Part shown: positions 5,999 through 49,710 of the stretch, piece by piece
Position numbering within the stretch: position 1 is the first letter of the stretch
Layout: each line of letters opens with the position of its first letter
The notes under the pieces: model-generated
Databases searched by the model: none
Told to the model about the DNA's origin: nothing
Seen by the model: the letters and a program-made list of their open reading frames with translations, nothing else
Made by a program: the position numbers and the translations under genes
IMG/VR virus record: IMGVR_UViG_3300032240_001755
Span: 1 to 50,151 of that record
Length of the DNA: 50,151 nt
Strand: one strand, 5' to 3'
DNA from: a virus

Positions 5999-6559
5999 AT
6001 GTACAATTTTATCAAGCATATCACGCTAAATGAGGGCAAAACTCCTAAAACTTTAACCCAAACAAAGTTGCCCTATAGTCGCGATGATTTAGAGCCAAGT
6101 ATTAGCGAAGACACGATAGATTATCATTACGGCAAGCTATACAAGGCGTATGTTACCCGTTTTAACAACGGAGAAGGCGATGCTGACTTTAATGAAGCAG
6201 GAGCATTTTTACACGATTTATTGTTTACACAGTATCAAACACCTACAACGTCTAACACTCCAGACGGGTCTGCAGGCGAATTTATTACTAAACACTTTAA
6301 AACTTTTGACAAATTTAAAGATGCGTTTCAAAAAGAAGCTATGGCAGTGCAAGGTAGCGGATGGGTTTATTTGGCTCGTGATGGTAAGATCAAAACTATT
6401 ACCAATCACGAAATTAAGATGGATATTGTACTCTTAATTGATTGGTGGGAACATGCGTGGGCACTAGACTACCAAGCTGATAAAAAATCGTATCTCAACA
6501 ACCAATGGAAAATTATCAACTGGAACGTAATTAGTTCTAGAATTGGTCTAGCGTCTTAA
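5999..6559 (+). CDS. sod: Fe/Mn-type superoxide dismutase
   Basis: Converts superoxide to hydrogen peroxide and oxygen. The family layout is clear: LPYSRDDLEPSISEDTIDYHYGK at residues 24-46, a shortened helical region, SGWVYLARDGK, then LLIDWWEHAWALDY and NQWKIINWN. All four metal ligands can be placed: His43, His72, Asp148 and His152. The second-sphere glutamine positions read Gly68 and His137, a pattern closer to His-type (mycobacterial-like) enzymes than to the E. coli Fe or Mn forms, so metal choice is open. The domain joining the two halves is shorter than usual. There is no signal peptide; it should act in the cytoplasm or in the virion. No Shine-Dalgarno is seen before the ATG, which stands almost on the late promoter element. 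Confidence 0.85.
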   Translation: MYNFIKHITLNEGKTPKTLTQTKLPYSRDDLEPSISEDTIDYHYGKLYKAYVTRFNNGEGDADFNEAGAFLHDLLFTQYQTPTTSNTPDGSAGEFITKHFKTFDKFKDAFQKEAMAVQGSGWVYLARDGKIKTITNHEIKMDIVLLIDWWEHAWALDYQADKKSYLNNQWKIINWNVISSRIGLAS

Positions 6560-38076: not shown

Positions 38077-40344
38077 ATGGTAGAACCAAGTGATAACTTA
38101 CAAGCAGTATTTGAAAAAGCAATTGATACTGCAAAAAAACTACACCATGAATATTTAACAATTGAGCATTTATTATTTGCTATGTTGTTAGACGATTCGT
38201 TTAGCAACTCGATCAAAGGGTTTGGTTCTGATAGTGAACAACTTAAACAACATCTCTTAGAATACCTACAGAATAAATGTGGTGAAATTACTATTGAGGA
38301 TATCGTTGTTAAGCCAAAGAAAACACAAAGTGTTGAGCGTGTTTTAAACAAAGCATTTACCCAAGTCTTATTTAATGGTCGTCAGCGCATTGAACCTACA
38401 GACGTATTTCTTGCTATGATGAGTGAAAAACGTTCTTGGGCGTTCTTCTATATCACAGAAGCAGATATACAAAAAGAAAAATTCAGTGAATACCTAAACA
38501 ATACTGCCGAAATTCAAATTGATGAAGAAGGTGGTCAACAATCCGGTAACGACAAAGCACTGGCAGCATTTACAACAAATCTTAACGAACAAGTTAAGAA
38601 AAACAAAATTGATCCAGTTATTGGTCGTGTGGACGAATTAGAAAACATTGCACTAGCAATGGGCCGTCGTAGTAAAAACAACGTAATCCTAGTAGGTGAT
38701 CCGGGCGTAGGTAAAACTGCTATTGCAGAAGGACTTGCATTCAATATTGTTAAAGGGTCTGTTCCGGAATTCTTAAAAGAATACACTGTTTATAATCTTG
38801 ATATTAGTGCTATGCTTGCAGGTAGTAAGTATCGTGGTGACTTTGAAGAAAGATTTAAAGCAGTTGTTAAGGCATTACAGAAAAAAGGTAAGACGGTCTT
38901 GTTTATTGACGAGGCACACATGATCAGTGGTGCAGGATCTGCTAGCAACTCAGCTAACGATCTTGCTAATATGATGAAGCCTGCATTGAGTAAAGGCAAC
39001 ATTAAAGTTGTAGCGTCAACTACCTGGGAAGAGTATCGTAAGCACTTTGAAAAAGATCGTGCTTTAATGCGCCGTTTCCAACGCATTACTGTTGACGAGC
39101 CAACTATGGAAGTTACCAAGCAGATTCTTAAAGGTATTAAGAAATACTACGAAGGTTTTCACAATGTTAAAATTCGTGACGATGCTATTGATGCCGCTAT
39201 TAAACTGTCAATTAAGTATCAAACAGATAAAAAACTACCAGATAAAGCAATTGACTTAATTGATGTAGCTTGCTCACGCTTTAACTTAAAGTTAGCAGAT
39301 GAACGTATTATTGGCGAACGCGAAGTTCAATATGAACTTGCTAAGATGATTCAGATGCCTGAAGAAAAGATTATGGAAACTGAGTCTAATAATCTTGCTA
39401 CGCTACAAGACAAACTTCAAGAAGAAATTTACGGACAAGATATTGCTGTCCAAGAAGTTGTAGATAAAATTATGGTGGCGCAAGCCGGACTTAAATCAGA
39501 AAATAAACCTATTGGATCGTTTGTATTCATGGGGCCAACTGGTTGCGGTAAGACCGAAACTGCCAAGTCTCTTGCTAAGAACTTAGGTGTTAAGCTATTA
39601 CGCTTTGACATGTCAGAATACCAAGAGAAGCATAGCATCTCTAAGCTAATTGGTAGCCCTCCGGGCTATGTTGGCTTTGAAGAAAATGCAGGTTTGTTGA
39701 TTACACAGATTCAAGAAAACCCAAATGCTGTATTGTTATTTGATGAAGTTGAAAAGAGCCATCCGGATGTTAGCACAGTATTACTACAAATGATGGACAA
39801 TGGTTTTATCACTGGTTCAAATGGCAAAAGAGCTGACTGTCGTAACTTGATTCTTATTCTTACTACCAATGCCGGTGCTCAAGACGCTGAAAAGAATGTT
39901 ATTGGATTTGGTACACAAGAAAAAGAATATAGTGACAAAGATTTAAAGAAGTTCTTTACGCCAGAATTTCGAAATCGTTTAGATGGTATTATTACGTTTA
40001 ACAAACTTGGTAAAGAAACAATGATTAAAGTTGTTGAGAAATTTATCAATGAGCTTCGTGAGCAAGTCAAAGACAAAGCAATCCGTATTAAGATTAATAA
40101 AGATGCTGTAGATTTCTTAATTGAAAAAGGCTTTGATCCTAAAATGGGTGCTCGTCCGTTACAACGGGTAATTGACAAAGAAATTAAACGCCCACTAGCT
40201 AAACTAATGTTGTTTAGTGATCTTAAGAATGGCGGTTGGGCTACTATTAGTAGAGATGGTGATCAGTTAATGATTGTTTCTAAAGGTAAAGAACCTAAGA
40301 ATGTCCCATTGCTGGCTGTCGAAGATACTGAGAATGTTGTATAA
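38077..40344 (+). CDS. ClpA-like AAA+ unfoldase
   Basis: A 755-residue Hsp100 protein, the size of E. coli ClpA (758). Residues 1-145 resemble the N-domain, then two AAA+ modules: Walker A GDPGVGKT at 207-214 with VLFIDEAHMISGAGSASNSA, and Walker A GPTGCGKT at 486-493 with SPPGYVGFEENAGLL and AVLLFDEVEKSHPDV. Residues 609-611 read IGF, followed by FTPEFRNRLDGII; this is the position of the ClpP-docking loop (IGL in ClpA), so it could hand substrates to host ClpP. No ClpP is seen in the window. Its promoter has a possible operator. It overlaps the next gene by 11 bases. Confidence 0.93.
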   Translation: MVEPSDNLQAVFEKAIDTAKKLHHEYLTIEHLLFAMLLDDSFSNSIKGFGSDSEQLKQHLLEYLQNKCGEITIEDIVVKPKKTQSVERVLNKAFTQVLFNGRQRIEPTDVFLAMMSEKRSWAFFYITEADIQKEKFSEYLNNTAEIQIDEEGGQQSGNDKALAAFTTNLNEQVKKNKIDPVIGRVDELENIALAMGRRSKNNVILVGDPGVGKTAIAEGLAFNIVKGSVPEFLKEYTVYNLDISAMLAGSKYRGDFEERFKAVVKALQKKGKTVLFIDEAHMISGAGSASNSANDLANMMKPALSKGNIKVVASTTWEEYRKHFEKDRALMRRFQRITVDEPTMEVTKQILKGIKKYYEGFHNVKIRDDAIDAAIKLSIKYQTDKKLPDKAIDLIDVACSRFNLKLADERIIGEREVQYELAKMIQMPEEKIMETESNNLATLQDKLQEEIYGQDIAVQEVVDKIMVAQAGLKSENKPIGSFVFMGPTGCGKTETAKSLAKNLGVKLLRFDMSEYQEKHSISKLIGSPPGYVGFEENAGLLITQIQENPNAVLLFDEVEKSHPDVSTVLLQMMDNGFITGSNGKRADCRNLILILTTNAGAQDAEKNVIGFGTQEKEYSDKDLKKFFTPEFRNRLDGIITFNKLGKETMIKVVEKFINELREQVKDKAIRIKINKDAVDFLIEKGFDPKMGARPLQRVIDKEIKRPLAKLMLFSDLKNGGWATISRDGDQLMIVSKGKEPKNVPLLAVEDTENVV

Positions 40345-41055: not shown

Positions 41056-41427
41056 ATGCGTATTAATGATCTATTAGAAGGAAGAGACTTTGACGATTTA
41101 AAATTTGTCAAAGTGACAGGTGATAAGCGTGAAATCGACTACGATTTAACTGAAGACTTATTTCACTTTATGAATAACGACGACGATGTATATCGTCGTC
41201 ACTTGCACCCTGTGATTATGAAATGTCAAGATCGCATGGATATGAAGCTGCCAATTAAACCAGAATTATTCAAACCTGCTATTATAAACAGCTACAAATT
41301 ATACACACAAAAATTCCCAATCCGCGAACTGCCTGTAACATTAGACGAAAAAATGTGTACAGAAATGTGTGGTAAAATACACGAAGAAATTTGCCAGCAC
41401 ATTAAAGACGGAAAATACAAGGAATAA
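41056..41427 (+). CDS. Phage protein with capsid-targeting-like leader (123 aa)
   Basis: The N-terminus MRINDLLE-GRDFDD resembles the short leaders of T4 internal head proteins, which end in a hydrophobic-x-Glu site cut by the prohead protease. The body is helical and charged (EDLFHFMNNDDDVYRRHLHP, then MKCQDRMDMKLPIKPELFKP) with a Cys/His pattern near the end (MCTEMCGKIHEEICQHIKDG) that could hold metal. First gene of the late block. Function unknown. Confidence 0.7.
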   Translation: MRINDLLEGRDFDDLKFVKVTGDKREIDYDLTEDLFHFMNNDDDVYRRHLHPVIMKCQDRMDMKLPIKPELFKPAIINSYKLYTQKFPIRELPVTLDEKMCTEMCGKIHEEICQHIKDGKYKE

Positions 41428-41429
41428 AT

Positions 41430-42605
41430 GTGTTACTAAGAGAACTATTCCTTTTTGAAAACACACAGCCTGTTGCTAAAACATCGGCTGATTACGGACG
41501 ACCGTTTAATCATCCAGAGCACATGGTTTTCTTTGGTGGTGCAGATGGCACCCTAGAAGCTCTTAACAGATTAAAATCTGTTACAACAGAGAAAAAAGGT
41601 AATACTACGTTACGTGTAAAATGGGATGGGGCTCCTCAAGTATACTGGGGTAGAGCTAAGAAAGGCGGGCCGCTCATTCTAGCAGGCCACAATGGTTGGG
41701 CCAGAGGTGCTGCCAGTACGACCCAAGAACAAGTATACGACTTTATTGCTAATCAGAGTGGTAGCCCTAAATCCCCAGAAGAAGCAGAAAAAAGACAAGT
41801 GTTTGCAAAAAACTTTGCAAACTTATATCCATTATTTGATGCGGCTACACCTAAGAACTTTGTAGGATTTGTTTACGCAGATAATTTATTTGGTGTTGAT
41901 TCGAGCAGGCCCAAAACTCTTAAGGATGGTGTATGGACTTTTTGTCCTAATCCGTTGAGTAAAACTTGTTACCACGTAAGTGCAAATAGCGATTTAGGTA
42001 AGCGTGTTGCTCAAGCACAAGTAATGGTAGTAGGGCACGGCACGTTTCCAACATTTGGTGCCAGTGATAGAGAACAACAACCATTAGATGATTTTAGTAT
42101 GTTTAATGGAACGCCTGGATTAATTGTTCAAAGTCCTATCTATACATCACAAGGTCCAGCTGTTGATCAAAGCACAATTAAAGTAATTGACAATGCAATA
42201 AAATATGCAACTACACATGAAGCAGTAATTGACGGCTTTTTAAATAGTTTACCAGATCCTGATAAAAACGGTATATTCTATCCGTTTGCAAATTACTTAA
42301 ACAAAGGCGGAATGTTTGATGCTGCCACTGGCAAAACATTCTTAGATTGGATGACACAAAAAGGTGTTAGTGCCAAGAAACAACAACATATCATTGCAAT
42401 GATACAAGCACATCCTGGCGGATTAGATGCAATTTTATTTCTAATGAAAGAAATTAGAAAAGTAAAAGATGCAATTTATGCTTCTGCTAAATCAAAAGAG
42501 CAACCAGAAGTTTGGGATTCAAACGGTGAAGGATATGTACAGTATGCTCAAAAAGGGCATAAACATGGACACATGAAAGTTGTGCCAACAAGCTGGACAC
42601 CATAA
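41430..42605 (+). CDS. KWDG-motif protein, possible divergent nucleotidyltransferase (391 aa)
   Basis: GTG start at 41430 with AAGGA six bases upstream; the ATG two bases earlier is out of frame. The leader MLLRELFLFE-N fits the (hydrophobic)xE pattern. LRVKWDGAPQVYWGR puts Lys64-Trp-Asp-Gly67 in the KxDG form of motif I of DNA/RNA ligases and capping enzymes. Later NFVGFVYADNLF and TPGLIVQSP could be motifs III and IV but lack the acidic residues, and STIKVIDNAIK could be motif V. Catalysis is thus doubtful. The C-terminus ends basic and Trp-rich. I recall similar proteins in T4-like marine phages without assigned function. Confidence 0.65.
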   Translation: MLLRELFLFENTQPVAKTSADYGRPFNHPEHMVFFGGADGTLEALNRLKSVTTEKKGNTTLRVKWDGAPQVYWGRAKKGGPLILAGHNGWARGAASTTQEQVYDFIANQSGSPKSPEEAEKRQVFAKNFANLYPLFDAATPKNFVGFVYADNLFGVDSSRPKTLKDGVWTFCPNPLSKTCYHVSANSDLGKRVAQAQVMVVGHGTFPTFGASDREQQPLDDFSMFNGTPGLIVQSPIYTSQGPAVDQSTIKVIDNAIKYATTHEAVIDGFLNSLPDPDKNGIFYPFANYLNKGGMFDAATGKTFLDWMTQKGVSAKKQQHIIAMIQAHPGGLDAILFLMKEIRKVKDAIYASAKSKEQPEVWDSNGEGYVQYAQKGHKHGHMKVVPTSWTP

Positions 42606-43615
42606 TGAGACTAAGAGAACTTTTTGAAAACATTTACGAGGCTGGAGAAGATAAGCCATTTGATAATAGTCTAAAAACTATTGGTATTTGCTTTGGTCGA
42701 TTCAATCCACCACATCATGGACACAGAGAAGTGTGGAAGTCTGCGGCTTCTAATCCTATTTGGTATGTAGGCACTAACGATAGTACAAGCGGTCCTAAAG
42801 ATCCATTACCATATGAAATTAAATTGCAAGCAATGGCCGCAGTATGGCCCAAAGTTGCAGGACATGTTATCCCCGAACAAAGTTTATTAACACTAGCAAG
42901 TCGTGTTTATCAAGAACATGGACAGAATGTACATTTAAAAGTTTACACTGACGAAGAATGGCTTTACAAAACATTAGCTCAGTATAACGGTGTCCAAGGT
43001 AAAGCACACGGTACCTATAAGTTTAATCAAATTGATTGGGTTAAAACTCAACGCCTAGCAAGTGCTACTGATTTACGTGCGGCTGTTCGTGCCGGTGATA
43101 GAAAATCTTTCTACCACAACATGGGAATTAAACCTAGCGTTACTATTAATATTAACAATAAAGAATATCCAGTATTTGATGTAGTAGCTCACTACTTAAA
43201 TCAATACCCTGAAGTTAAAAAGAAAGTTGCAGAAGGTACAACAAACGCAGCCGGAATTCGTGCTACCGGAGTAATGAAGAAAATTGATCCTACGCAAAAG
43301 GCCGCAATGAAAAATGCAATAACTCTTCCTGCTATGAATCAAAGCACAGGCTCGGCTTATTTAGGTTGGAGGCTAGGCATTGCACTAGCAGGTGCGCCTG
43401 ACTATCCAACTAAGGCAGAAGCTGATAACTGGATTGGTGGCGATCCTTTATTATCAACATATACTGAAGAAGAATTTGAAATGGTGCAGGCGGCAAGTTT
43501 AGCAGTGGGCGGAGGTAAGATAGAAAACTGGTCTGGCAAGCGTAGCGAAGAAATACCAGGAATACAAAAAGTAAGCCCCACAGCAAAACTTAAACGAAAT
43601 AAGTACGGGATATAA
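42605..43615 (+). CDS. NMN adenylyltransferase-like nucleotidyltransferase with extra C-terminal module (336 aa)
   Basis: Residues 24-40 (KTIGICFGRFNPPHHGH) are the HxGH nucleotidyltransferase signature, PIWYVGTNDSTSGPKDPLPY follows, and QRLASATDLRAAV equals the ISxTxxR motif; the nearest activities are NMN or pantetheine-phosphate adenylyl transfer, most probably NMNAT (NAD salvage). The leader MRLRELFE-N is of the capsid-targeting-like type. Residues about 230-336 form a second module (AMKNAITLPAMNQSTGSAYL, GWRLGIALAGAPDYPT) ending in SPTAKLKRNKYGI, and it recurs in the next gene. The enzyme may be delivered with the DNA; that is inference. Confidence 0.8.
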   Translation: MRLRELFENIYEAGEDKPFDNSLKTIGICFGRFNPPHHGHREVWKSAASNPIWYVGTNDSTSGPKDPLPYEIKLQAMAAVWPKVAGHVIPEQSLLTLASRVYQEHGQNVHLKVYTDEEWLYKTLAQYNGVQGKAHGTYKFNQIDWVKTQRLASATDLRAAVRAGDRKSFYHNMGIKPSVTININNKEYPVFDVVAHYLNQYPEVKKKVAEGTTNAAGIRATGVMKKIDPTQKAAMKNAITLPAMNQSTGSAYLGWRLGIALAGAPDYPTKAEADNWIGGDPLLSTYTEEEFEMVQAASLAVGGGKIENWSGKRSEEIPGIQKVSPTAKLKRNKYGI

Positions 43616-43616
43616 T

Positions 43617-44030
43617 ATGAAAATATTAGAAATTTTAGCTGAGGCTAGTGTAGTAAAAGATATAAGACGCAAAGAGCATCACGACGGTGATGGTAAAGAC
43701 TATGGCTCAACTAAAGAAAAATTGAATCCTGAACAAGATGCAGTTATGAAGGGTGCCATTGGAATTCCAGGAATGGAAAATCCATATAATCTTTATAGAT
43801 TAGGTGTATCTATTGCATCTTCTGAAAGACATCCAGCAAGTATAGATCATTTAGGTCAAGAACCGTTAATATTACCTTTTACAGATGGTGAACATACTCA
43901 TATTAAACACCATATTAAAAAAGCTGGATATAAAAGTAAAAAACTATCATCAAGTAAAAGTTCTGAGCCAAGTTCTGTAAATACTACTAGCCCTACAGCA
44001 AAACCTAAACGAAACAAATACGGAATTTAA
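43617..44030 (+). CDS. Small protein sharing the C-terminal module of its neighbour (137 aa)
   Basis: The N-terminus MKILEILAE-ASVVKD is close to the T4 internal-protein leader ending in IAE-A. The rest is a reduced version of the preceding protein's second module: AVMKGAIGIPGMENPYNLYR and LGVSIASSERHPAS align with the neighbour, and the end SPTAKPKRNKYGI is almost the same, with matching DNA (43581-43615 against 43996-44030). It has no enzyme domain. A packaged head protein or tag-only partner is inferred. Confidence 0.68.
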   Translation: MKILEILAEASVVKDIRRKEHHDGDGKDYGSTKEKLNPEQDAVMKGAIGIPGMENPYNLYRLGVSIASSERHPASIDHLGQEPLILPFTDGEHTHIKHHIKKAGYKSKKLSSSKSSEPSSVNTTSPTAKPKRNKYGI

Positions 44031-44031
44031 C

Positions 44032-44472
44032 ATGGATCAAAAATATCATTTAGCATTAAAAACGGCATTTGCAAGCGAATACGCATTTGCATTAAAAGCG
44101 CAAAACTTTCACTGGAACGTAGAAGGTGCAAGTTTTCCGCAACTACATATATTGTTTGAAAAAATCTACGACGAAGTGTATGGAAGTATTGATACATTTG
44201 CAGAACAACTTCGCGCACTACAGATGTACACACCTGCAAGTTTAGCCAAGTTTAGTATGCTTACCAAAGTTGAAGATGAAAATACAGAAGGTATGGATGC
44301 TGGACAAATGGTTGCAGAATTACTACAAGATAGCGAAAAGATGGCTGGTATTTTTAAGTTAGTATTTGCCATGGCTGAACAATCCGGTGATCATGGATTA
44401 AGTAACTTTTTTGCAGATCGTCAAGATGCACATAAAAAACACAGCTGGATGTTACGCAGTACATTAAAATGA
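44032..44472 (+). CDS. dps: Dps-like ferritin (146 aa)
   Basis: Dps forms a dodecamer that oxidises and stores iron, uses peroxide and can bind DNA. The di-iron ferroxidase residues match E. coli spacing exactly: His in FHWNVEG (position +0), His +12 (QLHILF), Glu +16 (Asp in E. coli), Asp +27 and Glu +31 (SIDTFAEQL). The length and the five-helix layout fit, without the Lys-rich DNA-binding tail. It starts one base after the previous stop and lies among proteins with head-targeting-like leaders; its own N-terminus (MDQKYHL) lacks that motif. Confidence 0.88.
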   Translation: MDQKYHLALKTAFASEYAFALKAQNFHWNVEGASFPQLHILFEKIYDEVYGSIDTFAEQLRALQMYTPASLAKFSMLTKVEDENTEGMDAGQMVAELLQDSEKMAGIFKLVFAMAEQSGDHGLSNFFADRQDAHKKHSWMLRSTLK

Positions 44473-44747
44473 AACAGTATAGGATTACAACAGAGCATTT
44501 AAATCAATCATCTGACGACGACTGTTATCTTGCACCTGAAGATCCTATACATGAATTAAAAGCAATTCAGCACTTGGCAGGTCTAGGTGCTGATGCTAGA
44601 TTACACGAAATGCGTGGAAGTAATCCTAGTGTTACTGGAAGCGATAACGGACGTATACAAAGAGAGCAAAATATTAAACCGGGTACACCTGAATGGTTTA
44701 AACTATGGTTTAGTTTACCATACATGACTGGGGAGAAAAAAATATGA
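44469..44747 (+). CDS. Phage protein of unknown function (92 aa)
   Basis: ATGA overlap with dps and with the next gene, so it is coupled on both sides. A soluble acidic protein (LNQSSDDDCYLAPEDPIHEL, NIKPGTPEWFKLWFSLPYMT). One cysteine, no membrane segment. The order dps, this gene, next gene looks like a conserved late-structural run in T4-like phages, but no function is known. Confidence 0.68.
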   Translation: MKQYRITTEHLNQSSDDDCYLAPEDPIHELKAIQHLAGLGADARLHEMRGSNPSVTGSDNGRIQREQNIKPGTPEWFKLWFSLPYMTGEKKI

Positions 44748-45217
44748 AAATGTCAGATTTAGATGAAAATTGGAATCGCCGAAGTGCTTATCAACGCGAC
44801 TACGACTCAAGCGTAAGCGGAATGGGCAAGCGTGATAGTTTAGCCTACCAGTTAGACGGTGGCGCTAACGATGAAGGGTGGGATCGAGAAGAGCCTAGAC
44901 AGCACAGACAACCTGCTGCCGATGTTCCGCACGATGTACATATTAATGGTAAAAAGTGGAAAACTTTTGGATCCCACAGTCATGCTAGCAATGTTGCTAA
45001 AAAGATCAAAGGAGCTACTGTACATCGATCAATTTCAGAAAATGCTACTGCCGGCGCCACTAGCGCAGGGTCGGTGAGTGTAGGTAATGCTATATACAAA
45101 AATAAGCCAGCAAAATCTGCCAAAAATAAAGATGGAACGGTTAAAAACGCACAAGATATGGATGTAAATCTAATTACAGGCGGAAGTATCGGCAAGCAGT
45201 CATTCATCAAACGATAA
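44744..45217 (+). CDS. Phage protein with repetitive, disordered regions (157 aa)
   Basis: The N-terminal half is charged and Asp/Arg/Gly-rich (DYDSSVSGMGKRDSLAYQLD, GWDREEPRQHRQPAADVPHD). Residues 64-94 (VHINGKKWKTFGSHSHASNV, AKKIKGATVHRS) could form a small beta-alpha fold. The segment ENATAGATSAGSVSVGNA followed by a Lys-rich stretch is of a kind I recall in T4-like phage head-associated proteins. Late promoter of the next gene overlaps its stop codon. Function unknown. Confidence 0.66.
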   Translation: MKMSDLDENWNRRSAYQRDYDSSVSGMGKRDSLAYQLDGGANDEGWDREEPRQHRQPAADVPHDVHINGKKWKTFGSHSHASNVAKKIKGATVHRSISENATAGATSAGSVSVGNAIYKNKPAKSAKNKDGTVKNAQDMDVNLITGGSIGKQSFIKR

Positions 45218-45220
45218 ATA
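45213..45220 (+). promoter_or_regulatory. Late promoter element (GATAAATA)
   Basis: GATAAATA overlaps the preceding stop codon, 23 bases before the ATG at 45244, with CGGAG as ribosome site. Confidence 0.65.
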
Positions 45221-45243
45221 TATAAAGAAAACGGAGTTTACCC

Positions 45244-46803
45244 ATGCCACTAGAACCAAGCGAAATGAATCCAGCAATGAGCCCAGATATGGCTGCACCT
45301 GCACAAGGATTTGATTTACCTACAGGACAACCAGATCACGAAGGCGCAATGGCCAAAGCTGATCTTTATAAATTAGCAAATTATAGCTTAAAATTGTTTA
45401 AGCAAATGGACGATAGCACACAATTAGAATCTTGGGTTCAAGCTAAGATTACTAAAGCCGCTGACTACATTGCCAGCGTATATCACTATTTAGAATACGA
45501 AATGAAATTTAGTGAGTACGGTCATCATTTGGATAACAGCGATACATTAAACGAGGCGCAAAAAATGAGAATTAAAGAATTACTAGCTGAAGCTAAAGAT
45601 AAGATGAAGGCGCTGAAAAAGCAAGATGCTGAAAAAGCAAAGAAAGTTGAAGAAGGCATCTTAAGTGGTGGTGATCGCCCATGTACAGAATGTGGTGGTA
45701 CTGGTATGGTTTATGAAGAACCTAAACCAATTCCGGCGCACGTACAGGGTAAAGTTGAAAAATACAAGCGTTTAACAAAAGCAACCCATGCCGCTCACAA
45801 GCGTTTAGATAAAAATCACAACGGTATTCCAGATGACGAAGAATTAGATGAGTTAACAGCAGAGTATCCAGGTGGCAGTACAAATTTCAGCACAGGCGAA
45901 GTTAAAGGTTCATATACTCCAACTGCGCCAGCAACGGGACAAGATAAACCCACTAAAGAAAGTTTTGACGAAAAATCAAAAGTTGGTGATACCAAAAAAA
46001 CCCGCACAGGTGTAATGACTAAGACTGACACTGGCGTTAAACATACTAACACTAGCTATCACGATGATGGCGAAGCTGAAGAAAAATCAGGTAAAGGTGT
46101 TAAGAGTCATGCTAAATCACAATCTGCCTCTGAAAAGAAAGATCGTGCTCCAGCTCTAAAGCAAAGTCCTAAGAGTGCTAAGACATGGGGTATGAAAGAC
46201 GGTTCAAAATTTGATAACCGCGATAAAGTTGACGAAGCCAAAAAGAAGGGCGACGGTAATTTGGCTAACAATGCTAAACCATATGACAAAATAACACGCG
46301 GTGATGTTATTGCCGGACGTCTTGGTAAAGACGAAAAAGGTGGCAAGGAAGTTAAAGAAGCCGCAAAGCCAAGCGCAGGACTAAGTGCCGCTAAAAAATC
46401 TGCTGTTGTTAAGAAAGCTAAAGCAGGTGGAGATATTGGTAAGCCAGGTAAGAGCTTTGACAAGGTAGCTAAGGCTGCGGGCGGTGGTAAGAAAGGCGAG
46501 AAAATTGCCGCTGCCGCTATGTGGAAAAACATCAAAGAAACTACTGCTTACATTGCTGAAAAAGCAAAAGCAACTAAAGATTTGCCAGGTAATCAGGAAA
46601 AGATTGATGCAGATCACGACGGTAAAATTGAAAAATCAGATTTAGCCGCATTACGTGCTAGTAAAAAAGAAACAGTTAAAGAGTCTACAGAATTTACACG
46701 TATGCAAGAGCAATTAAGTCGTTTAAATCGTAACGAAAACTTGCAAGTAACCGAATCTTCTGAAGTTGCACAACTACGCAAGTTGACAAAATTACTAGGA
46801 TAA
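45244..46803 (+). CDS. Large late protein with EF-hand-like loops and one zinc motif (519 aa)
   Basis: N-terminal residues 35-110 are a helical region (KADLYKLANYSLKLFKQMDD, WVQAKITKAADYIASVYHYL) that I associate with T4-like marine phage virion proteins. CTECGGTG near residue 147 is half of a DnaJ-type zinc site. Two DxDxDG-type loops, DKNHNGIPDDEEL (near 189) and DADHDGKIEKSDL (near 456), resemble EF hands or dockerin calcium loops. The middle is Lys/Gly/Ser/Asp-rich and probably disordered. MWKNIKETTAYIAEKAK near 430 is a conserved-type helix. A structural or packaged role is inferred from the late promoter and composition. Confidence 0.68.
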   Translation: MPLEPSEMNPAMSPDMAAPAQGFDLPTGQPDHEGAMAKADLYKLANYSLKLFKQMDDSTQLESWVQAKITKAADYIASVYHYLEYEMKFSEYGHHLDNSDTLNEAQKMRIKELLAEAKDKMKALKKQDAEKAKKVEEGILSGGDRPCTECGGTGMVYEEPKPIPAHVQGKVEKYKRLTKATHAAHKRLDKNHNGIPDDEELDELTAEYPGGSTNFSTGEVKGSYTPTAPATGQDKPTKESFDEKSKVGDTKKTRTGVMTKTDTGVKHTNTSYHDDGEAEEKSGKGVKSHAKSQSASEKKDRAPALKQSPKSAKTWGMKDGSKFDNRDKVDEAKKKGDGNLANNAKPYDKITRGDVIAGRLGKDEKGGKEVKEAAKPSAGLSAAKKSAVVKKAKAGGDIGKPGKSFDKVAKAAGGGKKGEKIAAAAMWKNIKETTAYIAEKAKATKDLPGNQEKIDADHDGKIEKSDLAALRASKKETVKESTEFTRMQEQLSRLNRNENLQVTESSEVAQLRKLTKLLG

Positions 46804-46807
46804 TTTT

Positions 46808-47143
46808 ATGGACATGAAGCGCATACTACAGGCGATGGATGGCGTTGCTACAAAGCCTGTAGTAGGTGCTGACAACATGTCTAAATTTTTGTCTATTGTA
46901 GACAAAAATGCCAGTGTTCAAATTCTTAACGAAGCCACTCCGCATAAAGTATCATTGCCAGTACAAATGGCAATGCAACATTATCAACAACCTACAAAAA
47001 TGTTAGAGCGTAAAGAATCTCTCATTTACAAATACTTTACACAAGTAGAAGAAGAAAAATTACAAGAACAAGTAAACAAACGTCAATTAATTAACCAGTA
47101 TGCAGGTCAAATTGCAGAGCGTGTATTAGGAAAAAACAAATGA
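46808..47143 (+). CDS. Helical phage protein with leader-like N-terminus (111 aa)
   Basis: The first residues MDMKRILQAMDGVATKPV resemble the start of the next protein (MNIKDLISKMDAIEQGSDKP): Met, basic, amphipathic helix, then Met-Asp. The rest is helical and rich in Gln, Glu and Lys (LPVQMAMQHYQQPTKMLERK, EEEKLQEQVNKRQLINQYAG). No known domain. It overlaps the next gene by four bases. Possibly a head-assembly or packaged protein. Confidence 0.66.
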   Translation: MDMKRILQAMDGVATKPVVGADNMSKFLSIVDKNASVQILNEATPHKVSLPVQMAMQHYQQPTKMLERKESLIYKYFTQVEEEKLQEQVNKRQLINQYAGQIAERVLGKNK

Positions 47144-49710
47144 ATATAAAAGACCTTATTTCTAAAATGGATGCCATCGAACAAGGCTCTGATAAACCAG
47201 TAATGGAAATTGCACCGCTGGTGGCTGCGGCATTAGGTGGTGGTCTTGGTTATTTGGCTAGTCAAGGTGGTAGCAGTGAAGATCCAGGTGCACCACCTAC
47301 TGAAATAGTACCTACTCACTTTCATAAAGGAAACCTTGGTAATATTATACCATTGATGATGACTAAACCTGGTGTTTTTTGGTGGATGGGTTCGTCACAA
47401 AATGCAGAAGGTGGTCGAGGAGGTGGTCGAGAAATACAGCGTTGGAATGGAAATACAAAAAATCGTTCTGCTTGGAACCCAGCAAGTGTTGACGGTGTTT
47501 ATATTGATGGCAAACCTGTTGAATTTCCAGAAGGCGTAACCTGGGATACATATAAGCCTCCGGTTAAACCTGATGCTCCAGTTAAACCTGATGCTCCAGT
47601 TACCCCAACTCCAGTTACTACAGTTACCCCAGACAGCGGGCAAGGCGGTAATACAGCACCTTGTGCTGAAAAGATTGCCAAACTAAATTCACTATTGAAA
47701 AAATTAGAAGCAGCCAAAAAAGGCGGTCCAACACTAGACTCGGGACAAGCTGGCAAACCCACTGACGACGTTATGAAACGTTTGGCAGGTGTTGGGGTTC
47801 CCGTTAAAGAAGATATATCGTTAGGCATTGAGCAACAACTATTATTAGAGTTTGGTTATCATGAACTAGACGAATATAGTATGCAACAATTTGGACAAGA
47901 TGCTAGTGATTTTGGCCGAGGTGCATTTAACGGTGTTACTTTAGGTGCCGGTGACAACATTGTTGCAGGCGGCAAAAGTCTTATTAAAGGTACAAAATAC
48001 AAAGACGAATTAGGTAAAGAACTTGCGGCCACTAAAGATGCCGAAGAGCGTAGTCCTTATTTGTATGGCGGCGCTAATCTTGCTGGATCTATTCTTGCAC
48101 CAATTCCAGGTGGATTTGCAGGAAATTTAGCTGTTAAAGGTGCTAAGGCAGCAGGAGTTACAAGCAAACTTGGCTTAGGCGCTGTAAATCTTGGAACTCA
48201 GGCAGCGGCAAATATTGGCGCAACATATGCCGCAGATAAGGCAATTCAAGCACACAATGCTAATGTATTGGGTACTCCTGATCAACCTCAACAAGGTGGT
48301 AAGCCACAAGGTGATCCTAAAGTATATGCACTACAACAAAAATTAATTGCAGCCGGTGCTAAGATTAAAGCAGACGGAATTATGGGACCTGCTACACAAA
48401 CAGCTATGAAACAATTCCCTACTGTTAAAGAATCAGTTGCAGAATCAATGGCTAGTTTACGAGATCGTCTAGCAATGCTAGAACAAGAAAAATCTTTAGA
48501 TGAAGCAGGTAAGTTAGATCTAGCAACTAAAGGTGCTGATTGGCTTTCTAGTAAAATTGGCGGATTATTTGGCAAAGGCGCAGATGATGCCGCTACGGCC
48601 GCAACTAAAGCCGCTGACAAAGTAGCGCCAGCCGCAACTAAAGCCGCTGACAAAGTAGCGCCAGCCGCAACTAAAGCCGCTGATACGTTACCGACAACTG
48701 TTAGACTATCAGGCGAAACTTGGACTAAAAACGGTAGTAACTATCTTAGCAATACTGGTAAGTCTATGTCAGTAGATAAGATGGCAGCAAAACTTGGAAA
48801 AACTGATGCTAAATTAAGTCCGGGTGGTACAAAAGTTCAAGGTCAAGGGACCGCTAATGCAAATGCTGGAGCCCGTACTCAAAGTGCTATGGCTAATATG
48901 GTAAAAGGTGGCGCCGACGATGCTGCCAAAGCAGCCGGTAAGGCAGCAGATGATGTTGCTGGAGTAGCCGGTAAGGCAGCAGATGATGTTGCTGGAACAG
49001 GTGGTAAAGCAGCCGGTAAGGCAGCAGATGATGTTGCTGGAACAGGTGGTAAAGCAGCCGGTAAGGCAGCAGATGATGTTGCTGGAGCAAGTTCTTCAGC
49101 TAGCTCAAGTGCAAGCTCAAGTGCAAGTAGAAAAGTATTAACAGGTGCAGAAAAAGCAGAAAAAGAAGCAGTTCAAGCATTAGGACCATTAGAAAAGAAA
49201 TCCTGGATTAGACGTAACCCTGGAAAGGCGCTTACATACGGACTAATAACTACCGCAACTGCATATGCATTATACAGAATGCTTTCAGGTGATGACGGTC
49301 AAGGGCCAAATCCAGAGCCAGTTACACCAACTACAGTTACACCAACTCCAGTTACACCAACTACAACAAATACAACAGATATTGAAAACGAAATTGGGCA
49401 GTTAATGTCTGACTTAGCACAACAGCCAGAGTGCCAAAAAGAATTGGCGGCGGCAAGGCAAGAATTAGCTAGAATTACTGGTAATACTGCAATTGGTTCA
49501 TTAGATGCTAAATCAACAGCACCGACACGTACACAAGTGCAAACAGATGACGAAGGTAATCATATGATTACTACGCCAGATGGAAAAACTATAGTTGTTG
49601 GGCCAGATGGTAAGCCTCTAGAAAACGGTGGTAAAATTCCAGCAAAAGCTCCTGCTACATTAGGCGAAACTGACGAATTAGCTCGCTGGTTGAAAATAGC
49701 CCGCGGTTAA
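47140..49710 (+). CDS. Modular late protein with peptidoglycan-binding-like domain and repeats (856 aa)
   Basis: Segments in order: leader-like N-terminus, a Gly-rich hydrophobic helix (LVAAALGGGLGYLASQGG, about 27-44), a Trp/Gly/Arg region, Pro/Val repeats (PVKPDAPVKPDAPV), an amphipathic membrane-active-looking region (GAFNGVTLGAGDNIVAGGKS, ANLAGSILAPIPGGFAGNLA), and a PG_binding_1-like stretch (VYALQQKLIAAGAKIKADGI, then MGPATQTAMKQF, near 397-428). Then Ala/Lys repeats, a polar repeat, a transmembrane segment (LTYGLITTATAYALYRML, about 705-722) and a C-terminal helical part. Two hydrophobic regions and a wall-binding motif would suit a protein ejected into the envelope with the DNA, but this is inference. 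Confidence 0.68.
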   Translation: MNIKDLISKMDAIEQGSDKPVMEIAPLVAAALGGGLGYLASQGGSSEDPGAPPTEIVPTHFHKGNLGNIIPLMMTKPGVFWWMGSSQNAEGGRGGGREIQRWNGNTKNRSAWNPASVDGVYIDGKPVEFPEGVTWDTYKPPVKPDAPVKPDAPVTPTPVTTVTPDSGQGGNTAPCAEKIAKLNSLLKKLEAAKKGGPTLDSGQAGKPTDDVMKRLAGVGVPVKEDISLGIEQQLLLEFGYHELDEYSMQQFGQDASDFGRGAFNGVTLGAGDNIVAGGKSLIKGTKYKDELGKELAATKDAEERSPYLYGGANLAGSILAPIPGGFAGNLAVKGAKAAGVTSKLGLGAVNLGTQAAANIGATYAADKAIQAHNANVLGTPDQPQQGGKPQGDPKVYALQQKLIAAGAKIKADGIMGPATQTAMKQFPTVKESVAESMASLRDRLAMLEQEKSLDEAGKLDLATKGADWLSSKIGGLFGKGADDAATAATKAADKVAPAATKAADKVAPAATKAADTLPTTVRLSGETWTKNGSNYLSNTGKSMSVDKMAAKLGKTDAKLSPGGTKVQGQGTANANAGARTQSAMANMVKGGADDAAKAAGKAADDVAGVAGKAADDVAGTGGKAAGKAADDVAGTGGKAAGKAADDVAGASSSASSSASSSASRKVLTGAEKAEKEAVQALGPLEKKSWIRRNPGKALTYGLITTATAYALYRMLSGDDGQGPNPEPVTPTTVTPTPVTPTTTNTTDIENEIGQLMSDLAQQPECQKELAAARQELARITGNTAIGSLDAKSTAPTRTQVQTDDEGNHMITTPDGKTIVVGPDGKPLENGGKIPAKAPATLGETDELARWLKIARG
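48598..48684 (+). repeat. 33-bp tandem repeat in coding sequence
   Basis: Units at 48598 and 48631 are complete and 48664 partial, encoding AATKAADKVAP. In-frame, so copy number can vary; the residues form an Ala/Lys helix. Confidence 0.85.
48937..49086 (+). repeat. Tandem repeat encoding GKAADDVAG units
   Basis: A 27-bp core starting GGTAAGGCAGCAGATG occurs at 48937, 48970, 49015 and 49060. The last two units are 45 bp apart and encode GTGGKAAGKAADDVA; the first are 33 bp apart. The repeats lie in frame and code for an Ala/Asp/Lys helix. Confidence 0.85.

Follow-up and report, generated by a model that had tools for sequence, protein, structure and literature searches.

The DNA studied is the 50,151-base virus record IMGVR_UViG_3300032240_001755, itself a fragment; we refer to this whole stretch as the window. 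The phage is a freshwater relative of T4, and its T4-like character shows in the window, which encodes a clamp loader of T4 type (phrog_168) together with a member of the transcription regulator family phrog_639. A near-DNA search of phages with the window gave no match. Ten genes on the plus strand, from 41056 to 49710 (41.0-49.8 kb), form the cluster analysed here, and encode a 123-aa protein, a DUF6267 protein, an NMNAT/cytidylyltransferase-like enzyme, a 137-aa module protein, a Dps-like protein and five further proteins. A ClpA-like AAA+ protein is encoded at 38077-40344, with DnaJ-like and GroES-like genes close by; we identified 528 stretches related to it in IMG/VR contigs, indicating that the lineage is very abundant.

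A sequence-only reading of the cluster had singled out N-termini resembling the T4 capsid-targeting leader, and all of these lie where it placed them: MRINDLLE-G (41056), MLLRELFLFE-N (41430), MRLRELFE-N (42605) and MKILEILAE-A (43617), together with two looser forms, MDMKRILQAMD (46808) and MNIKDLISKMDAIE-Q (47140). Two further leaders had been overlooked, MKMSDLDE-N at 44744 and, outside the range considered, MYNFIKHITLNE-G at 5999.

The leader of the 123-aa protein (41056-41427; leader codons 41056-41079) is strictly maintained. In 40 aligned relatives R2, L6 and E8 are invariant and I3 and L7 nearly so, and both L6 and E8 are found in 96 of 96 homologues, with the next residue mostly G, N or S. 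In the structural model the first ten residues have a pLDDT of 53 and are followed by a helical domain, for which a fold search against the PDB returned no significant match.

The adjacent gene (41430-42605; leader 41430-41459) encodes a DUF6267 protein (PF19782, E 3.5e-16, 60 bits against a cut-off of 27) with a predicted nucleic-acid ligase-like fold. The invariant residues of the family include K64-W65-D66-G67, the KWDG of motif I (41619-41630), as well as E367-G368 and K383. Leader residues R4, E5, F7 and E10 are conserved in at least 90% of relatives, the linker at positions 11-22 varies more than both the leader before it and the body after it, and in the AlphaFold model residues 1-20 have pLDDT below 50, with a confident core from about residue 23. 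The leader is thus an appended, independent piece of the protein. Homologues in S-CAM9 and S-SZBM1 are leaderless, their sequence opening directly with the domain (MAKNTHLEHLEDD), and the Melnitz homologue carries a leader, MLTLINFSKYITED, in front of the same domain. All 50 of the best VIA-align matches listed for the model are RNA or DNA ligases (Z 4.9-7.4, the best being 7.4 over 181 residues); the best Foldseek match, at E 0.28, is not significant. On this modelling it is moderately likely that DUF6267 is a ligase-like covalent nucleotidyltransferase; our literature search found no paper naming the family. The start codon is GTG in the window and in about 30 relatives, and overlaps an out-of-frame ATG placed directly after the stop codon of the previous gene.

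The NMNAT/cytidylyltransferase-like enzyme (42605-43615; leader 42605-42628) matches phrog_3041 (E 2.2e-15), with PF01467 under the cut-off, and contains the HxGH motif (GRFNPPHHGH); a sequence search against solved structures gave no match. Its relatives mostly begin M[RK]LR[EQ]LFE-[NS], and a second possible cut site, IYE|A at residue 12, gives it two candidate sites. The C-terminal module of the enzyme (43277-43612) recurs in the 137-aa module protein (43617-44030), which consists of the leader, a copy of the module and the tail KRNKYGI. The earlier statement that the leader-bearing proteins share little else is partly wrong, as this pair have the module (34% identity over 112 aa) and the tail in common. 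The tail KRNKYG[IV] occurs in 83 lineage ORFs, 74 of which have the strict leader and most of the others a leader-like start. The AEASVVK of the module protein is identical to residues 9-15 of T4 IPIII, so that the two match across the cut site (MKILEILAEASVVK aligned with MKTYQEFIAEASVVK). Neither this protein nor that at 47140 had a match among named phages.

The remaining genes differ in how closely they conform. Relatives of the 157-aa protein (44744-45217; leader 44744-44767) begin MKINDLLGE-G, MKVTEILSE-M, MKMYELDE-N and MRIKELLE-N. An 856-aa low-complexity protein (47140-49710), with a weak peptidoglycan-binding match and the C-terminus DELARWLKIARG, represents a weaker case judged by its N-terminus: the start fits only as a longer leader, which in relatives (MNIRELLDRIDTLAE-A, MNLRDIMTKLDAIEE-G) closes with LAE|A, with LSE|A or with IEE|G. 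The other looser form, in a 111-aa protein (46808-47143), was rejected as a gp21-type leader; MDMK[KR]ILQA[MLI]D is kept in relatives, and Glu is absent both there and in the window. The Dps/ferritin-like protein in mid-cluster (44032-44472; PF00210, E 2e-20) has no leader, its relatives listed likewise being leaderless and beginning MD/ME-KYHLALKTAFAS, and neither has the gene at 44469. A low-complexity protein at 45244-46803 contains MRIKELLAEA near residue 109, resembling an internal gp21-type site.

Outside the cluster, on the plus strand at 5999-6559 (leader 5999-6034), we identified an Fe/Mn superoxide dismutase (PF00081/PF02777) in which the Sod_Fe_N match starts only at residue 22, behind the appended leader. 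Its relatives have Glu at position 12 in 76 of 81 cases and Gly at position 13 in 75 of 81. The enzyme is probably a further cargo protein. In the superoxide dismutase of PA5oct a comparable position reads ISIAE|A, and the record of that protein mentions ESI-MS/MS.

The shared N-terminal leader is real and far beyond chance. A pattern composed after the window was inspected, M-x-Φ-x-[DE]-Φ, occurs at the N-terminus of six of the ten cluster genes and one of the 34 other genes of the window (Fisher 2e-4), against a rate of 0.9% when the interior of these proteins is scanned (binomial 1e-10). If the complete leader with its closing Φ-x(0-2)-E is required, the counts are four of ten and none of 34 (internal rate 0.6%, p 3e-7). 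In seven related contigs the pattern is found in 27 of 142 genes (p 7e-21, with related genes counted repeatedly), including genes to which nothing in the cluster closely corresponds (MRAKEFLAE, MYIREFSEG, MKINELIS). When about 100 related contigs were scanned, ORFs of at least about 55 aa yielded 225 leader matches, every one on the gene strand, a few families accounting for most. The leader is found on the otherwise unrelated DUF6267, NMNAT-like, 41056, 44744 and superoxide dismutase proteins, and in homologues across many related contigs the leader and its Glu are among the best-kept residues, followed by a variable linker. Both recurrence on unrelated proteins and conservation in homologues, which the sequence-only reading had proposed to look for, were accordingly found.

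The form of the leader corresponds to what is known in T4, where internal proteins are directed to the core by leaders 10-19 residues long, with gp21 cutting behind L/I-x-E (PMC9026906), and where ip genes were discovered by their capsid targeting signal (PMC12373910). T4 record sequences begin MKTYQEFIAEA (IPII and IPIII), MELITELFDED (Alt) and MAKINELLRES (gp24). The window sites (LLE|G, LFE|N, LAE|A, LDE|N and LNE|G) have the form Φ-x-E|[AGSN], which fits the gp21 rule (PMC9026906) and supports capsid targeting, as does the disorder of the leader and its separation from the DUF6267 fold in the model. At 8-14 residues the window leaders are slightly short beside the T4 length of about 10-19, and their hydrophobic residues stand at positions 3, 6 and 7, as opposed to 4, 7 and 8 in IPIII.

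No head genes, including a gp21-type protease, were found in the 50-kb window fragment, and gp21 and gp23 searches of the first, smaller related contigs were also empty. The protease is present in the lineage, however: gp21 (PF03420) and gp23 (PF07068) were identified in four large contigs (161, 345, 223 and 161 kb) and in one of 98 kb. Both the His and the Ser motif are preserved in lineage gp21 (GE[VL]xHP and GVSSRG). A site of the cut type, YLME|S, lies around residue 41 of gp23, and gp22 contains 8-10 of them. In one 161-kb contig (G008) the gp21 gene (45201-45829) is split by a stop, which may belong to the phage or only to its sequence data. In the four large contigs a small gene between the portal and gp21 genes, the position of T4 gp67, starts MILRELFYID, a version of the DUF6267 leader whose tenth residue is Asp; in T4, Asp at this position permits targeting and blocks cutting (PMC9026906).

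We compared these leaders with the virion proteomes of cultured cyanophages. For S-CREM2, virion proteins were taken from the available part of Table 3 of PMC10665884. With annotated gene starts, on which three of the five leaders depend, and a regular expression composed after the virion list was known, a leader with T4 IPIII spacing was found in five genes, all five virion-detected, and in none of 167 undetected genes (Fisher 4e-5), where undetected may mean low abundance. These genes encode a SAM hydrolase (MKDFDSFLEE), gp13 (MKDLHSFLTE), an APH-like kinase (MKRFDAFLTE), gp136 (MQTFSMFFSE) and a cytidylyltransferase (MKNFSSFLTEA). In a sixth protein of the list, a Cas9-like nuclease, PLRFASFMAEA follows a few residues after the start, and many of the virion proteins listed are leaderless.

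Because the S-CREM2 expression was made after the list had been seen, we examined two more genomes. The sole leader gene in a 57-gene stretch of S-SCSM1 is the virion NMNAT (MKSFLQFLKEA, in both strict and loose forms), and the sole leader gene in an 85-gene stretch of S-SZBM1 is again the virion NMNAT (MRFRQFIIEAV, loose form); the leaderless DUF6267 homologue of S-SZBM1 is undetected in the virion data available for that phage. In the accessible part of PMC3037559, a 'citidylyltransferase' is also reported in virions of S-SM1. Leader-bearing proteins, either homologues of those in the window, such as the NMNAT, or others, are thus detected in the virions of three cultured Kyanoviridae (S-CREM2, S-SCSM1 and S-SZBM1), as far as the published excerpts extend. 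The virion NMNATs of these three, which have the leader, and of S-SM1 are homologous to the window enzyme, although identity to it is only 25-28%. Motif, conservation, lineage gp21 and virion detection of leader-bearing homologues together support the proposal that these N-termini are T4-type targeting leaders.

We consider it likely, on the combined analysis, that the leaders act as T4-type capsid targeting signals, with the enzyme cargo cut by a gp21-type protease and delivered with the DNA. During head assembly the amphipathic leader would bind the prohead core, the gp21-type protease would then cut after its Φ-x-Glu, and the freed enzyme would remain alongside the DNA inside the head, entering the next host upon infection. 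The proposed cargo comprises the ligase-fold DUF6267, the NMNAT-like enzyme, the small proteins and probably the superoxide dismutase at 5999, so that several unrelated leader-bearing enzymes would probably be packed in the particle and delivered with the DNA. The targeting half of this putative mechanism is strongly supported by the sequence comparisons; core binding is inferred, as are cleavage at the Glu and ejection of these exact proteins, the latter two by analogy with T4.

Other explanations of the leader were weighed against this. Chance or compositional likeness of the N-termini would be conceivable insofar as short motifs easily arise and the first examples were picked by eye, but the enrichment in the window and its relatives, the restriction of all 225 matches to the gene strand and the conservation of the leader in homologues contradict it, leaving it extremely improbable. 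It is also rather unlikely that the N-terminal helix serves to dock the proteins onto another complex, for instance the replisome or an enzyme assembly common to them, and that they act only where they are made. Short conserved amphipathic peptides are often docking motifs, and in other phages the cassette adjoins replication genes; this explanation nevertheless leaves unaccounted for the conservation of the Glu with a small residue behind it, the agreement with established gp21 sites, the occurrence of this leader on the gp67-position gene, and the virion association in S-CREM2.

Alternatively, the proteins might be targeted to the prohead and processed there to serve head assembly only, without delivery as active enzymes. 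The T4 core proteins gp67 and gp68 have leaders or cut sites and no known host role, and the proteins at 47140 and 45244, the latter with its internal MRIKELLAEA, resemble low-complexity core proteins. Set against this are the conserved catalytic residues (K64, D66 and G67 invariant in DUF6267, HxGH in the NMNAT) and the ejection of T4 proteins of this kind (PMC9026906), and we regard a purely structural role as unlikely. For cargo delivered by capsid targeting, guesses from the folds would be nucleic-acid repair, NAD supply and oxidative protection in the host. More tentatively, abundant freshwater T4-like phages might preload an enzyme kit (ligase-like, NMNAT-like and superoxide dismutase) by means of a single head-targeting leader that can be exchanged between proteins. 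Deployed as the DNA enters, this kit would counter damage or defence in the host, for example cleavage of RNA, depletion of NAD+ or oxidative stress; we offer this as a doubtful but conceivable extension.

The class of mechanism is known from T4, and the lineage, the leader spacing and the cargo are new. As with T4 IPI-III and Alt, a short leader with hydrophobic positions and a Φ-x-E site is carried by unrelated proteins in a lineage with a gp21-type protease. In contrast to T4, the cargo, consisting of the ligase-fold DUF6267, NMNAT-like, superoxide dismutase and small proteins, has no recognised IP homologue, and a C-terminal module is common to several cargo proteins. In most cases the leader reads M[KR]Φ-x-E-L-F/L-E, which makes it shorter by one residue than that of IPIII and nearer to those of gp24 and Alt. 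SPN3US/phiKZ-type ejection proteins are similarly packed with the DNA and have propeptides removed by a prohead protease, according to the accessible part of PMC5694885, although these phages belong to a different head lineage from that of the window.

Cyanophage virion proteomes, in the parts available, repeatedly show NMNAT-like enzymes, kinases and SAM hydrolase, and their authors leave CsCl carry-over as an open alternative and, in those parts, offer no packaging signal; the leader would provide a testable mechanism. In our literature search for capsid targeting and cyanophages, only the T4 review PMC9026906 joined both. Since the leader marks all five such proteins of S-CREM2, it might serve as a simple sequence rule for predicting injected proteins in a very large, mostly unknown phage group, directly checkable through N-terminal peptides. 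DUF6267 and similar families would then act at the start of infection, suggesting functions for them.

We additionally noted similarities at the C-termini. The lineage scaffold gp22 ends IIDIRKLAGLKI, and similar ends or starts are found in several cassette and other proteins (DELARWLKIARG at 47140, ELYKWLTIAGLK and MDDLSRLKKLAGI), perhaps representing a second assembly signal; scanning for LAGL, the motif at the gp22 C-terminus, brought up some suggestive but only weakly enriched cases, on which we build no claim. Sequences like the T4 leader also occur at the C-termini of proteins in the available virion lists, with KTFRDFLN in the Cas9-like nuclease of S-CREM2 (stretch L016:7704-10313) and RTFKEFLEYIE in S-SCSM1_93 (stretch L242:31627-31836).
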